Source: an uncultured Muribaculaceae bacterium (lineage in GTDB: Bacteria > Bacteroidota > Bacteroidia > Bacteroidales > Muribaculaceae). From it: 64,000 nucleotides of DNA. The stretch spans positions 1 through 64,000 of the forward strand of contig CAMWRV010000003.1 of the NCBI GenBank assembly GCA_947176745.1. Reading direction: 5' to 3'. The translations under genes were made by a program, and so were the position numbers. Below the pieces are notes generated by a model. It saw only the letters and a program-made list of their open reading frames with translations. It was not told where the DNA came from and searched no databases. Numbering within the stretch: position 1 is the first letter of the stretch; each line of letters starts with the position of its first letter. Shown here piece by piece: positions 1,805 through 7,983 of the stretch.

Positions 1805-2563
1805 ATGAACACAAAACTAAAACACTATGTCGGCACCAAGCATATCTTGGCAATGCCGATGACCAAGGGCGAAGCCTATCAGAAAGGTATTTGTCGCTTT
1901 CAGTTTAACGACGATCAAGAACGAGAAGCCTTCGTTCAGAGTGACGATTACAAAACACCCGGTTATAAAGTCGTTTATCAGGATGGTTACGAATCGTGGT
2001 CTCCAGCAGACGTGTTTGAAGCGGCTTATAAAGTCGCTGAAACCGCACTCGATAGAGTAAATATTGAGGATGAAGAGTTGCGAGACAGAACCGACAAACT
2101 CGGACAATTTATTTTCAATAAGAACGACGGGGCCGACTATCAGTCTCTCCCACTCGGAACACGAGCAATGCTCTTAGCTCAATTCCATGCAATGTGCTCA
2201 TACTCTGTACTCCTGTCTCTCCGTCAGAGCTGCATGGAAGGTGGCGTGGATTGCCATCCTTGTGGCCTGAGTTTTGAACAGATCCTTCCACTTCTCAAAG
2301 AGGGCTTTGCTGTTCGCCGGGCAGGTTGGAACGGCAAGGACCTGATGGTTTTCAAGCAGGTTCCAGCCCGTATTTCTGCTGAAGTGATTCCCAATATGCA
2401 GTCACTTCCCAATGAGGCCAAACGTCTGGTTCTCGCTCATGGTGATCACATCGACTATGTTTCTCAGTGCCTCATCTTCAATCCGGCATTTGGAGAAGCA
2501 AATTCATGGGCTCCGTCTATCTCAGATATTTTTGCAAATGACTGGGAGCTCGTATTGGAATAA
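1805..2563 (+). CDS. composite phage protein with C-terminal DUF2829/Tad2-like domain
   Basis: aa 155-252 LSFEQILPLLKEGFAVRRAGWNGK...SWAPSISDIFANDWELV matches the DUF2829 (Thoeris anti-defense Tad2) pattern; aa ~83-142 predicted helical hairpin; N-term GTK...PMT..EA...GYESWSPxDVFExAY. Confidence 0.8.
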   Translation: MNTKLKHYVGTKHILAMPMTKGEAYQKGICRFQFNDDQEREAFVQSDDYKTPGYKVVYQDGYESWSPADVFEAAYKVAETALDRVNIEDEELRDRTDKLGQFIFNKNDGADYQSLPLGTRAMLLAQFHAMCSYSVLLSLRQSCMEGGVDCHPCGLSFEQILPLLKEGFAVRRAGWNGKDLMVFKQVPARISAEVIPNMQSLPNEAKRLVLAHGDHIDYVSQCLIFNPAFGEANSWAPSISDIFANDWELVLE

Positions 2564-2683: not shown

Positions 2684-5293
2684 ATGGTAAAAGGATTAAA
2701 AGCGCCGACTGGCTTAACCATAGATTTTAAGCCATCCCCCAGACAATATGAAATGTGGAAACTGCTTCAACCAAATTGTTGCCCTCATTGTGGCGGTGAA
2801 ATTGAAGTAGTACAATCAGGACTTGATGAAAGAGGTAAACCAAAATATGCACCTCAGTGTAAAAAATGTAATACTCGTCACCTTCCCAGATTTATTTTGG
2901 GCGGTGGTGCTGCCGGTGGTGGCAAGGCTATATCATTAGACGATAATGTCTTAACGCCTATGGGTTTTAAGAAAATGCGCGACATTCAATTGAATGATGT
3001 TGTATCAACTCCTGATGGCGGTTTAGCACATGTTATAGCAATTCATCCTCAGGGTAAAATTCAATTATGGGAACTCACAACAAACGATGGAATATCAGTT
3101 AAATGCTGTGATGACCATATTTGGAAAGTCAATGTTCACGACAAATCTGGTGCGCATGAAGTCATTACAGATACAAAGCATTTGAGGGCATGGTTGAGCG
3201 AAGGTAGAAAAATTAGCATATCTCTAACCAAACCAGTTTATACTTCCACTAATTATGGTTCTTTCATTCATCCATATATCATTGGCTTCTTAATAGGCGA
3301 TGGTGGCTTAACTGGGAATATGACATTTACCACAGCAGACACGGAGTTAGTTGATAAAATTAAAAGCCTTGTTCCTGATGGATGTACGGTTCATAAAGTA
3401 CCATCCAGTAAATATGGATATGTAATAAAAAATAAGTACACTGATGCTAAAGGTCATCCATATTCGCCTTTCAAAAATGAAATTATTCGTTTAGGACTAA
3501 ATTGTAGTAGCCACGACAAGCGCATCCCTAAGTTTATTTTATCAGGTGAATATAGTGTAAGGCTAAGCTGCGTACAAGGATTGATGGATTCTGATGGGTA
3601 TGTTGATAAGAGGGGGCATTGTAGTTTTTCGGTGTGTAACGAAGGCTTAGCAAGAGACTTCTTGTTTTTGGTTAGAAGTCTTGGAGCAAAAGCTACAATA
3701 AACAGTGGCGTCAAGTATTGCTATTATAAAGGTGAAAAGAAATCTGCAATTGCTTATACCGTGCGATTTAATTGCGAACATAAAGCGGACTTTGTAACCT
3801 TGCATCGCAGAAAGGAAAGAATACCTGAAAAGGTAAAAGTTGCTCCAAGGTTGATAACACATATCAAGGATGCTGGTATTCAAGAGGCTCAATGTATATC
3901 TATTGACACTGACGATGGTTTGTTTATTACAAATGATTATCTACCTACACACAACTCGTATGTAGGTAGTTGCTGGATTATAATGAGCTGTATCAGGTTC
4001 CCCGGCAATCGAGCAGTTGTGGCCCGTAAAACATTGAAGGCACTGAAGGGCTCTACATTTAATACAATCAAGTTCGTTCTCAGGCAATGGGGTCTTGAAC
4101 AGGACGTTCACTACAAGATCAACAATATAGAAGGTCTTGTTACTTTCTGGAATGAGAGTACGATTTCTCTGATTGAGTTGGAAGACCTGCCTTCTGATCC
4201 TGAATTTGAGCGTCTTGGTTCTAACGAATGGTCTTGTGGGTTCATCGACGAGTGCTCTCAGGTTTCAGAAAAGGCTGTCGAAATCTTATATAGTCGCCTT
4301 CGTTGGTTGGTTCCGGAATATTGGGGTTATCCTCGATTGCTGATGACAACCAACCCATCAATGAATTGGGTCCGGTCAAGATTTGTGCAAGATAATGACG
4401 GCAACCCAGTTGTTCTGGCTCCACAAGATGAATTTGTTCGCTTTTCAGTCTTTGATAATCCATGTACGTCATTTGTGGCCACATATCGTGATGCTCTTGA
4501 CAAGCTTTCAGACCCGGCAGCTCGTCATCGCCTTCTATATGGTGTTTGGGACTGGGTAGGTGAGAATGAGGCAGCCGCTTATTGGAATTTCGAAGGTAGC
4601 ACTCATCTGGTAGATAATCTTCGAGAGAAGGTTTATGATCCGCTGAAGCCCCTGATAATCTCATGGGACTTTAACGTAGCTCCGTTCATGTCAACATTGG
4701 CCCTCCAGGTGGATTATGACAATAAAAAGCTATATGTGTTGGAAGAGGTTATCGGACGCCCGGAGGATAAGGAGAATAACACGCCCAAGCTCGCCGACAA
4801 AATCTCCAACAAATACTTAACCGAAAGCCACATGGGTGGCCTATTAGTAACAGGAGACCCAGCTGGTCTGGCCCGGTCAACACAGACTGAGGATGGCGTA
4901 AACAACTATACTATTATTCTCAATCACTTGCACCCATCTCTCAGAGCGCAAAAGAAACTGTTGACCAAGCAGCCCCCTCAGGTTACACGTCTGGAATTTA
5001 TCAACAATCTGTTCAACGGATATGATGGTTGGGAGATTCTGATAGATATGAGATGCCGACGATTAACTGAAGACCTCATATATCAAAAGAAGAATGAGGA
5101 TGGTACCAAGAATAAGGCAAAGATTACCGATCCGAAACTTGGTATGAAATATGAGAAATACGGCCACATGTCCGATGCACTGGATTACGCAATATGCTTG
5201 TTGTTATCAAATCCGTGGAAGAAATTTCAGCATATAGGCAGTAGTGGTATAGCAACTGTTAACACGCCAATATACGGCCATTTTGACTATTGA
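2684..5293 (+). CDS. terL: phage terminase large subunit, intein-containing
   Basis: Extein FILGGGAAGGGK|SYVGSCWIIM (split Walker A), CGFIDECSQV Walker B-like, ISWDFNVAP nuclease motif; intein aa 82-424. Confidence 0.93.
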   Translation: MVKGLKAPTGLTIDFKPSPRQYEMWKLLQPNCCPHCGGEIEVVQSGLDERGKPKYAPQCKKCNTRHLPRFILGGGAAGGGKAISLDDNVLTPMGFKKMRDIQLNDVVSTPDGGLAHVIAIHPQGKIQLWELTTNDGISVKCCDDHIWKVNVHDKSGAHEVITDTKHLRAWLSEGRKISISLTKPVYTSTNYGSFIHPYIIGFLIGDGGLTGNMTFTTADTELVDKIKSLVPDGCTVHKVPSSKYGYVIKNKYTDAKGHPYSPFKNEIIRLGLNCSSHDKRIPKFILSGEYSVRLSCVQGLMDSDGYVDKRGHCSFSVCNEGLARDFLFLVRSLGAKATINSGVKYCYYKGEKKSAIAYTVRFNCEHKADFVTLHRRKERIPEKVKVAPRLITHIKDAGIQEAQCISIDTDDGLFITNDYLPTHNSYVGSCWIIMSCIRFPGNRAVVARKTLKALKGSTFNTIKFVLRQWGLEQDVHYKINNIEGLVTFWNESTISLIELEDLPSDPEFERLGSNEWSCGFIDECSQVSEKAVEILYSRLRWLVPEYWGYPRLLMTTNPSMNWVRSRFVQDNDGNPVVLAPQDEFVRFSVFDNPCTSFVATYRDALDKLSDPAARHRLLYGVWDWVGENEAAAYWNFEGSTHLVDNLREKVYDPLKPLIISWDFNVAPFMSTLALQVDYDNKKLYVLEEVIGRPEDKENNTPKLADKISNKYLTESHMGGLLVTGDPAGLARSTQTEDGVNNYTIILNHLHPSLRAQKKLLTKQPPQVTRLEFINNLFNGYDGWEILIDMRCRRLTEDLIYQKKNEDGTKNKAKITDPKLGMKYEKYGHMSDALDYAICLLLSNPWKKFQHIGSSGIATVNTPIYGHFDY
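2927..3955 (+). other. intein with LAGLIDADG homing endonuclease (343 aa)
   Basis: Begins AISLDDNVLTPMG, ends YLPTHN before Ser+1; IGFLIGDGGL and VQGLMDSDGYV dodecapeptide motifs. Confidence 0.92.
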
Positions 5294-6372: not shown

Positions 6373-7719
6373 TTAATATGCAGCAAGAGCATCGAGATAG
6401 TTGGTGTAATGGCGTTCGATCATTCCCACAGATGTGCCCGCCACCTTTGCCAGCATAGAAATTGGCATATCGTTGTCGATGAGGGCCTTTGTTATAGCTG
6501 TTCGTCTGAACGCATAAATAGTCAGATGGTAAGGAAGACCGAAGTAGTCACCGACTTTCCACAGAAAGCGGTTTACACGTCCTTGTGCGCGATTCTGCTG
6601 AGTGTAGTACAAGTGGTACTGTTCAGGATCTTCAAGATCCCATTTCTTGTTGTTTTGCGAGAAAGGAAGAACATACCCATGGCGAGATTTATCTTTGTAT
6701 TTGAGAATGATCTCCATAGCGCGAGGTGTAAGAAATTGTACGACAAGTGGATTAGAGTCGTGCTCGCGTGTCAGGGCGTAATTCTTTTTCTTACTTGGAA
6801 TGTAAGTGCAGGTCCATCGCCCATATTGCTTGTTGTAGGCAATGTTGTCCCATGTCAGTTTCATAACATCAATGGGGCGTGACTTCATTTCATAAAGAAG
6901 TATACAGAAATCACGATAGAGTTCCTTGTAAAAGTTGAGATGAGGTCTTCGGAGCTTAATACAGTCAAGGTCAAGATTGACAAACTGCTCGTACTGTTCC
7001 GGGCTGAGAGATTTTATTGTCCCTCCATTGCTGTTGAGATCCGACGCCTTCTCTGACAGTTTATTGACAACTGGGGCATAATCCATATATGGAAAGTTTG
7101 GAACATACTCTGTAAGTCCAGCCTTACGTGCCCTATTCACAGTTGCAATCAAGAGCTTCATTAGAGAAATATAGTTCTTGCCTGTCCCTTTCTGGCTCTT
7201 TTGATTTAAAATGAAGTCTGAGAATTGCACAAATGTGCTTCGGTTGACCTTGCATAAGGGGATTCTGATAATCCGTTTTTCTTTCACCAACTTGCTCTGA
7301 AGCGTCTGATAGGTCATATAGTTGGATGAGGGCTTACGTCTGGTGGGGTTTTTCAGTTCCTCTATGACCTGCTCAAGAAATTTCCCAAGAGTCATTTCTT
7401 TCTGTTCTTCGATAAGAGCCTGTTCTATTCTTTCTTTTTCCGAAAGATCATACTTGGCGAACAATTCTTTACCAGATTCAAACTGATGCTCATTAAGCAG
7501 TTGTTCAAATGGAGCGAGATAGTCGAGAAGTCGGGTATTGTTCTGTAGATCACTCTCAGAGCTGGAAACGAACATCTGGACTTTGGGATTCCACTTCGAA
7601 AAATTAGGATTTTTTAACACATTCACCACCTTATAGTGGCGAACCTGAGTGCCCTTTACGTGGGCGCAGAGACAGAACTTGCCGTCTTTTTTAGTAAATT
7701 TTAACGAAATTTTGGACAT
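6373..7719 (-). CDS. tyrosine recombinase/phage integrase
   Basis: YEMKSRPIDVMKLTWDN...YAFRRTAITKALIDN...MLAKVAGTSVGMIERHYTNY; start at MSKISLKF. Confidence 0.9.
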   Translation of the reverse strand: MSKISLKFTKKDGKFCLCAHVKGTQVRHYKVVNVLKNPNFSKWNPKVQMFVSSSESDLQNNTRLLDYLAPFEQLLNEHQFESGKELFAKYDLSEKERIEQALIEEQKEMTLGKFLEQVIEELKNPTRRKPSSNYMTYQTLQSKLVKEKRIIRIPLCKVNRSTFVQFSDFILNQKSQKGTGKNYISLMKLLIATVNRARKAGLTEYVPNFPYMDYAPVVNKLSEKASDLNSNGGTIKSLSPEQYEQFVNLDLDCIKLRRPHLNFYKELYRDFCILLYEMKSRPIDVMKLTWDNIAYNKQYGRWTCTYIPSKKKNYALTREHDSNPLVVQFLTPRAMEIILKYKDKSRHGYVLPFSQNNKKWDLEDPEQYHLYYTQQNRAQGRVNRFLWKVGDYFGLPYHLTIYAFRRTAITKALIDNDMPISMLAKVAGTSVGMIERHYTNYLDALAAY

Positions 7720-7876
7720 AATGTTGAGATTTACGGTCCAATGGATTTCGATTATGGCCGGACTGCACAATTTACTGCACATCATTTACGCCATCGTGCG
7801 AGAAACAGGGTTTGCGTCGAGTGACCATATAGTAGACATCGACTGCAATTCGCTGTTACTCACTCAGATATAAAAA

Positions 7877-7907
7877 TAAAAGTGAGGGGTCAAATTCCTC
7901 ACTTTTA
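7877..7907. terminator. hairpin between integrase and tRNA-Gln
   Basis: taaaagtgagg/cctcactttta 11-bp perfect stem. Confidence 0.65.
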
Positions 7908-7910
7908 TCA

Positions 7911-7983
7911 GTTGCCTTGGAAAGACTCGAACTCTCACAAACGGAACCAGAATCCGGTGTGCTACCATTACACCACAAGGCAA
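7911..7983 (-). tRNA. tRNA-Gln(CTG), probable prophage attachment site
   Basis: Reverse complement TTGCCTT...ccgga-TTCTGGT-tccg...AAGGCAA-C. Confidence 0.9.

Follow-up and report, generated by a model that had tools for sequence, protein, structure and literature searches.

A probable prophage gene of a Muribaculaceae genome codes for a Tad2-like domain joined to a PF21825 helical hairpin and a third, N-terminal module

The window analyzed here is the first 64,000 nucleotides of the forward strand of contig CAMWRV010000003.1, from the assembly of an uncultured Muribaculaceae bacterium (GCA_947176745.1). The gene under study is probably carried by a prophage in this gut-type Bacteroidales genome and lies close to the contig end, from which the gene order is a tRNA array, two small ORFs, the ORF at 1805-2563, the terminase gene, and a recombinase-like ORF by a tRNA-Gln. 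Seven tRNA genes (Ile, Tyr, Glu, Trp, Pro, Asp, and Gln; 99-1072) make up the array at this phage end of the contig, and two other loci with the same kind of protein (L063 and L076) also carry many tRNAs. Neither Pfam nor PHROG matched the two small ORFs upstream of the gene (1005-1439 and 1426-1755) above chance, and the loci that we fetched for comparison contained no relatives of them. The terminase large subunit ORF (Terminase_3; 2684-5293) is split by an intein-like insert that follows directly after the GGGK (Walker A-like) motif and carries LAGLIDADG/Hom_end homing-endonuclease domains. Last, a tyrosine-recombinase-like ORF of 470 aa on the minus strand (6373-7982) adjoins the tRNA-Gln (ctg); together they are likely the prophage attachment end, and we infer that this end of the contig is one end of the prophage.

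ORF calling in the window gave a reading frame of 252 aa, running from ATG to stop, whose product is divided into three modules (Table 1), all of them far above chance. The full chain was modeled with AlphaFold2 from a 60-sequence alignment (mean pLDDT, 93.1; pTM, 0.80), and the model consists of a beta-rich N-terminal module (N-module), two long helices (aa 81-113 and 117-146), and a Tad2 domain. A preliminary description of this DNA had proposed a composite phage protein with a third module at its N terminus. Both points held, as the ORF was confirmed, the same architecture recurs in at least 42 non-redundant proteins, and conservation and the AlphaFold2 model delimit the N terminus as a separate beta-rich unit of about aa 5-78. 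PADLOC and NCBIfam returned no match for the ORF product.

Table 1. Positions in the window of the three-module ORF, its modules, and the motifs of its Tad2 domain
Feature	Position	Strand	Basis
Three-module ORF: N-module, helical hairpin, Tad2	1805..2563	+	ORF calls, AlphaFold2, recurrent architecture
N-module (aa 5-78), GTK...GYxVxYxDGYxSWSPxxxFExAY, beta-rich	1817..2038	+	phrog_872/32732/9467, conservation, AlphaFold2
Helical hairpin (aa 80-146), PF21825, crAss001_48 related	2042..2242	+	Pfam, AlphaFold2 helices, conservation in 49 sequences
Tad2-like domain, PF11195 (aa 155-250)	2267..2554	+	Pfam E=2.1e-16, PDB sequence matches, Foldseek
GWNGK loop (aa 174-178), beta1-beta2 loop of the predicted gcADPR pocket	2324..2338	+	Alignment with SptTad2, HgmTad2, and SPO1 Tad2
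Long Tad2 insertion (aa 185-221), SLP..AK motif	2357..2467	+	Alignment
WAPSISDIFANDW motif (aa 235-247), covering strand beta4, helix alpha3, and the loop between them in the predicted pocket	2507..2545	+	Alignment

The last of the three modules belongs to Tad2, a type of domain known to sequester the nucleotides that serve as bacterial immune signals. Its Pfam family, PF11195, matched aa 156-250 over profile positions 2-73 of 73 with a score of 60.6 bits (cut-off, 25), and the best sequence matches in the PDB were SptTad2 (8wjd; 5e-13) and HgmTad2/AcrIIA7 (8kbi and others; 1.5e-10), with SPO1 Tad2 and ModTad2 also among the nearest solved structures. The same four proteins were found when the AlphaFold2 model was compared by Foldseek (SptTad2, 8e-9; HgmTad2, 1.5e-8), with a TM score to the target of about 0.7 to 0.87 for the solved Tad2 structures. 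According to their titles, the nearest solved relatives by fold are SptTad2 bound to cGG and HgmTad2 bound to 1',2'-cADPR/cGG. The Tad2-like domain that had been placed at aa 155-252 is therefore borne out by Pfam, by the PDB sequence matches, by the predicted fold, and by its pocket motifs, and the structural comparison that had been proposed as a check gave a match, with Foldseek E values down to 8e-9. The context of the domain is different, however, as the solved Tad2 proteins stand alone and have about 90-105 aa (158 aa in the AcrIIA7 construct 9kzr), whereas the window protein has 252 aa, of which Tad2 makes up the final third, behind the N-module and the PF21825 hairpin.

The gcADPR pocket of Tad2 is made up of the beta1-beta2 loop, strand beta4, the beta4-alpha3 loop, and helix alpha3, while cyclic dinucleotides bind to the Tad2 insertion, separate from the gcADPR site (PMC12043709). 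In an alignment with SptTad2, HgmTad2, and SPO1 Tad2, the window protein keeps both the GWNGK and the W.PS.SD motifs, which appear to correspond to the pocket elements of that review, and the W, S, D, A, D, and W of the WAPSISDIFANDW motif are invariant in all the aligned Tad2 rows. The long insertion with its SLP..AK motif is common to the window protein, SptTad2, and HgmTad2 but missing in SPO1 Tad2. As this insertion is the cyclic-dinucleotide site in Tad2 proteins, a dual signal range, if there is any, is more likely to lie within the Tad2 domain, and the alignment supports the insertion as its source better than a second sponge fold. A paralogue with 66% identity in the same genome (contig C68, 1618-2334; L022:1621-2337) has VWGEN where the window copy has GWNGK, and its signal range may possibly have changed.

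The middle module is a member of the crAss001_48 related family, as PF21825 matched aa 80-140 with 40.6 bits (cut-off, 24.8; E=2.4e-10; positions 2-58 of 61), and modeled alone the hairpin reached a pLDDT of 95. Conserved positions in 49 hairpin sequences are, in the numbering of the window protein, R84, E88, Q126, M130, Y133, L137, and R140, whose spacing would put them along one side of helix 2 and at the beginning of helix 1 opposite to it, close to the open end. Elsewhere PF21825 occurs by itself or combined with different phage domains, and a profile search among 149 genomes of the phylum found it only in the window's own genome, a distribution consistent with a phage-borne domain.

The helices at aa ~83-142 had been tentatively assigned to the Acb2/Tad1 hairpin in the preliminary description, which had raised the prospect of two nucleotide-sponge folds in one polypeptide. 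The label is tempting; Acb2 and Tad1 also have two long antiparallel helices and Tad1 likewise has a beta part before them (PMC12043709), but only the hairpin itself stands, by PF21825 and the modeled helices, and the family assignment has to be corrected. PF24729 (Acb2_Tad1_hairpin), searched in the same Pfam library that gave PF21825, had no match to the window protein at E<=1 and none in the window's own genome, while it recognized T4 Acb2 at 71 bits and found SBSphiJ7 Tad1 as controls; its lack of any match across Bacillota genomes is uninformative. With hhalign, the 49 hairpins aligned to eight Acb2 proteins with P=0.26 over 6 columns and gave nothing against Tad1 (P=0.68 over 1 column), whereas the control alignment of Tad1 with Acb2 had P=0.002 over 26 columns. 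A PDB search with a profile of ten hairpins did not find Acb2 or Tad1, and neither was among the best 50 of 112 Foldseek matches of the hairpin model (best E=1.3), a weak comparison, as two-helix hairpins are poor Foldseek queries. We also asked whether the N-module and hairpin together, with a beta part preceding two long helices, could be a remote version of Tad1, but there was no signal against SBSphiJ7 Tad1 or in the PDB. The Acb2/Tad1 identity of the hairpin is thus rejected by Pfam, by hhalign with its Tad1-Acb2 control, and by the PDB profile search, and the idea of two sponge folds, with no profile or fold link of the hairpin to those proteins, is left unsupported.

No Pfam family matched the N-module, which has near-invariant residues at K12, G53, Y54, G61, Y62, W65, S66, P67, F71, and Y75. 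It is widespread in phages, and its partners include RyR, WDGH, gp49/66, and hairpin domains, as in the gp49/66-N-hairpin protein of Stenotrophomonas phage Philippe (L151:955-1638), a protein of LASTA with an unknown region between N-module and hairpin (L150:814-1689), and an N-WDGH protein (L050:957-1592). The hairpin was also found in a protein annotated as MazG-like, in which the MazG Pfam domain was not detected.

A profile scan of the fetched loci found the N-hairpin-Tad2 order in at least 42 non-redundant proteins, mostly from Muribaculaceae, Prevotella, and other Bacteroidales and their phages, together with 18 N-Tad2, 11 N-hairpin, and 5 Tad2-hairpin (reverse order) proteins and 21 Tad2 proteins without the other two modules; because the loci had been selected for their similarity to the query, these counts are not population frequencies. 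One protein with the three-module order is gp86 of Bacteroides phage BS-TP1 (XPO95219.1), isolated on B. salyersiae, with 47% identity over 99% of the query. The modules also occur as neighboring genes. Vibrio phage 1.205.O has hairpin and Tad2 fused in one gene that adjoins an N-module gene, another locus (L135) has separate but overlapping genes for hairpin and Tad2, a third (L012) has an N-Tad2 gene followed by a hairpin gene, and phage Philippe carries its gp49/66-N-hairpin gene two genes after a Tad2 gene. In a quickly built tree with 87 Tad2 domains, the presence of the hairpin changed at least 12 times, a count that is approximate, as the tree is based on 98 columns and leaves many forks open. 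This mix-and-match pattern of fusions and adjoining genes suggests that hairpin and Tad2 work together, and the occurrence of the N-module and the hairpin on other phage domains as well (RyR, gp49/66, WDGH, and the MazG-like protein) would suit a role as adaptors.

The most likely reading, which we consider somewhat probable, is that the protein acts as a nucleotide sponge through its Tad2 domain and that the other two modules are accessory. The gene product would be a phage counter-defense protein whose Tad2 domain, going by the rest of the family, would assemble as a tetramer of V-shaped dimers. The pocket between protomers, with GWNGK and W.PS.SD, would hold signals made by TIR proteins, gcADPR or a related ADP-ribose compound, and the long insertion of the SptTad2/HgmTad2 type would probably also bind cyclic dinucleotides such as cGG. 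By capturing these signals, the protein would keep the effectors of Thoeris and of some CBASS systems off; the binding of signals, the tetramer, and the anti-defense effect are all extrapolated from what Tad2 proteins do. For the other two modules we can only offer guesses guided by their distribution. The hairpin, whose role as an adaptor is a guess reached by elimination, would drive or stabilize oligomerization, and a protein-protein contact would come from the N-module, a phage adaptor of general use that is found on several unrelated domains.

The hairpin could instead be a second ligand-binding (sponge) module of a family other than Acb2/Tad1, so that the chain would hold two sequestering folds. 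The 49 hairpins hardly vary at R84, E88, Q126, Y133, and R140, whether they are alone, before, or after Tad2, a polar conservation that exceeds the needs of a plain coiled coil, and the hairpin is found repeatedly with Tad2, before or after it in fusions and in adjoining genes, as well as in the protein annotated as MazG-like. We regard this as unlikely, as the hairpin has no link by sequence, profile, or fold to Acb2 or Tad1, PF21825 has no solved structure or known function, and polar networks are also present in helical oligomer interfaces.

Some Tad2-domain proteins may have roles other than that of a sponge, and two such roles have to be weighed against the accessory-module reading. The first is that of a protein for virion assembly or other housekeeping of the phage that reuses the Tad2 fold and has no anti-defense activity. 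The window copy does precede the terminase large subunit gene, and the N-Tad2 gene of Bacteroides phage BS-TP2 has head-tail genes on one side and tail genes on the other. However, the paralogue on contig C68, which is found among small genes and beside an integrase-like ORF, and the copy in BS-TP1 are in accessory regions, no structural domain was found in the protein, and the scattered distribution with frequent gain and loss of modules is unlike that of a structural gene, so we hold such a role to be quite unlikely. The second, an AcrIIA7-type anti-CRISPR that would inhibit Cas9 instead of, or in addition to, binding nucleotides, is suggested by the annotation of some phage homologues as anti-CRISPR and by the second-best PDB match, HgmTad2, which was deposited as AcrIIA7 (8kbi and 9kzr), but the titles of the HgmTad2/AcrIIA7 structures indicate bound 1',2'-cADPR and cGG, and we consider it very improbable.

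Tad2 itself is already known, and the three-module form is present in public records, where BS-TP1 gp86 is annotated only as a DUF2829 domain-containing protein. Tad2 has been studied so far as a stand-alone sponge; here, in many phages and prophages, mostly of Bacteroidales, it is joined to two uncharacterized domains in several orders and also in neighboring genes, so that both PF21825 and the N-module become candidate parts of the phage counter-defense toolbox. No paper on the fusion or on the function of PF21825/crAss001_48 was found in the literature searched, most subscription papers being outside it. The architecture raises the question of whether the hairpin affects the Tad2 oligomer, its affinity, or its range of signals. 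A more speculative idea, which we hold to be improbable, is that PF21825 is an unrecognized ligand-binding module that widens the signal range of Tad2, with the N-module as the common adaptor of a mix-and-match anti-defense set; if true, this set would comprise Tad2, the hairpin, RyR, WDGH, gp49/66, and the MazG-like protein.

We have also looked for the defenses that such a protein would counter. No match to prok_STING was found in the genomes of the order, a search in which the controls were likewise silent, and ThsB_TIR had no match in the window's own genome. Genes for ThsB-type TIR proteins are present in 29 of the 247 genomes of the same order, which makes a matching defense plausible for the hosts.
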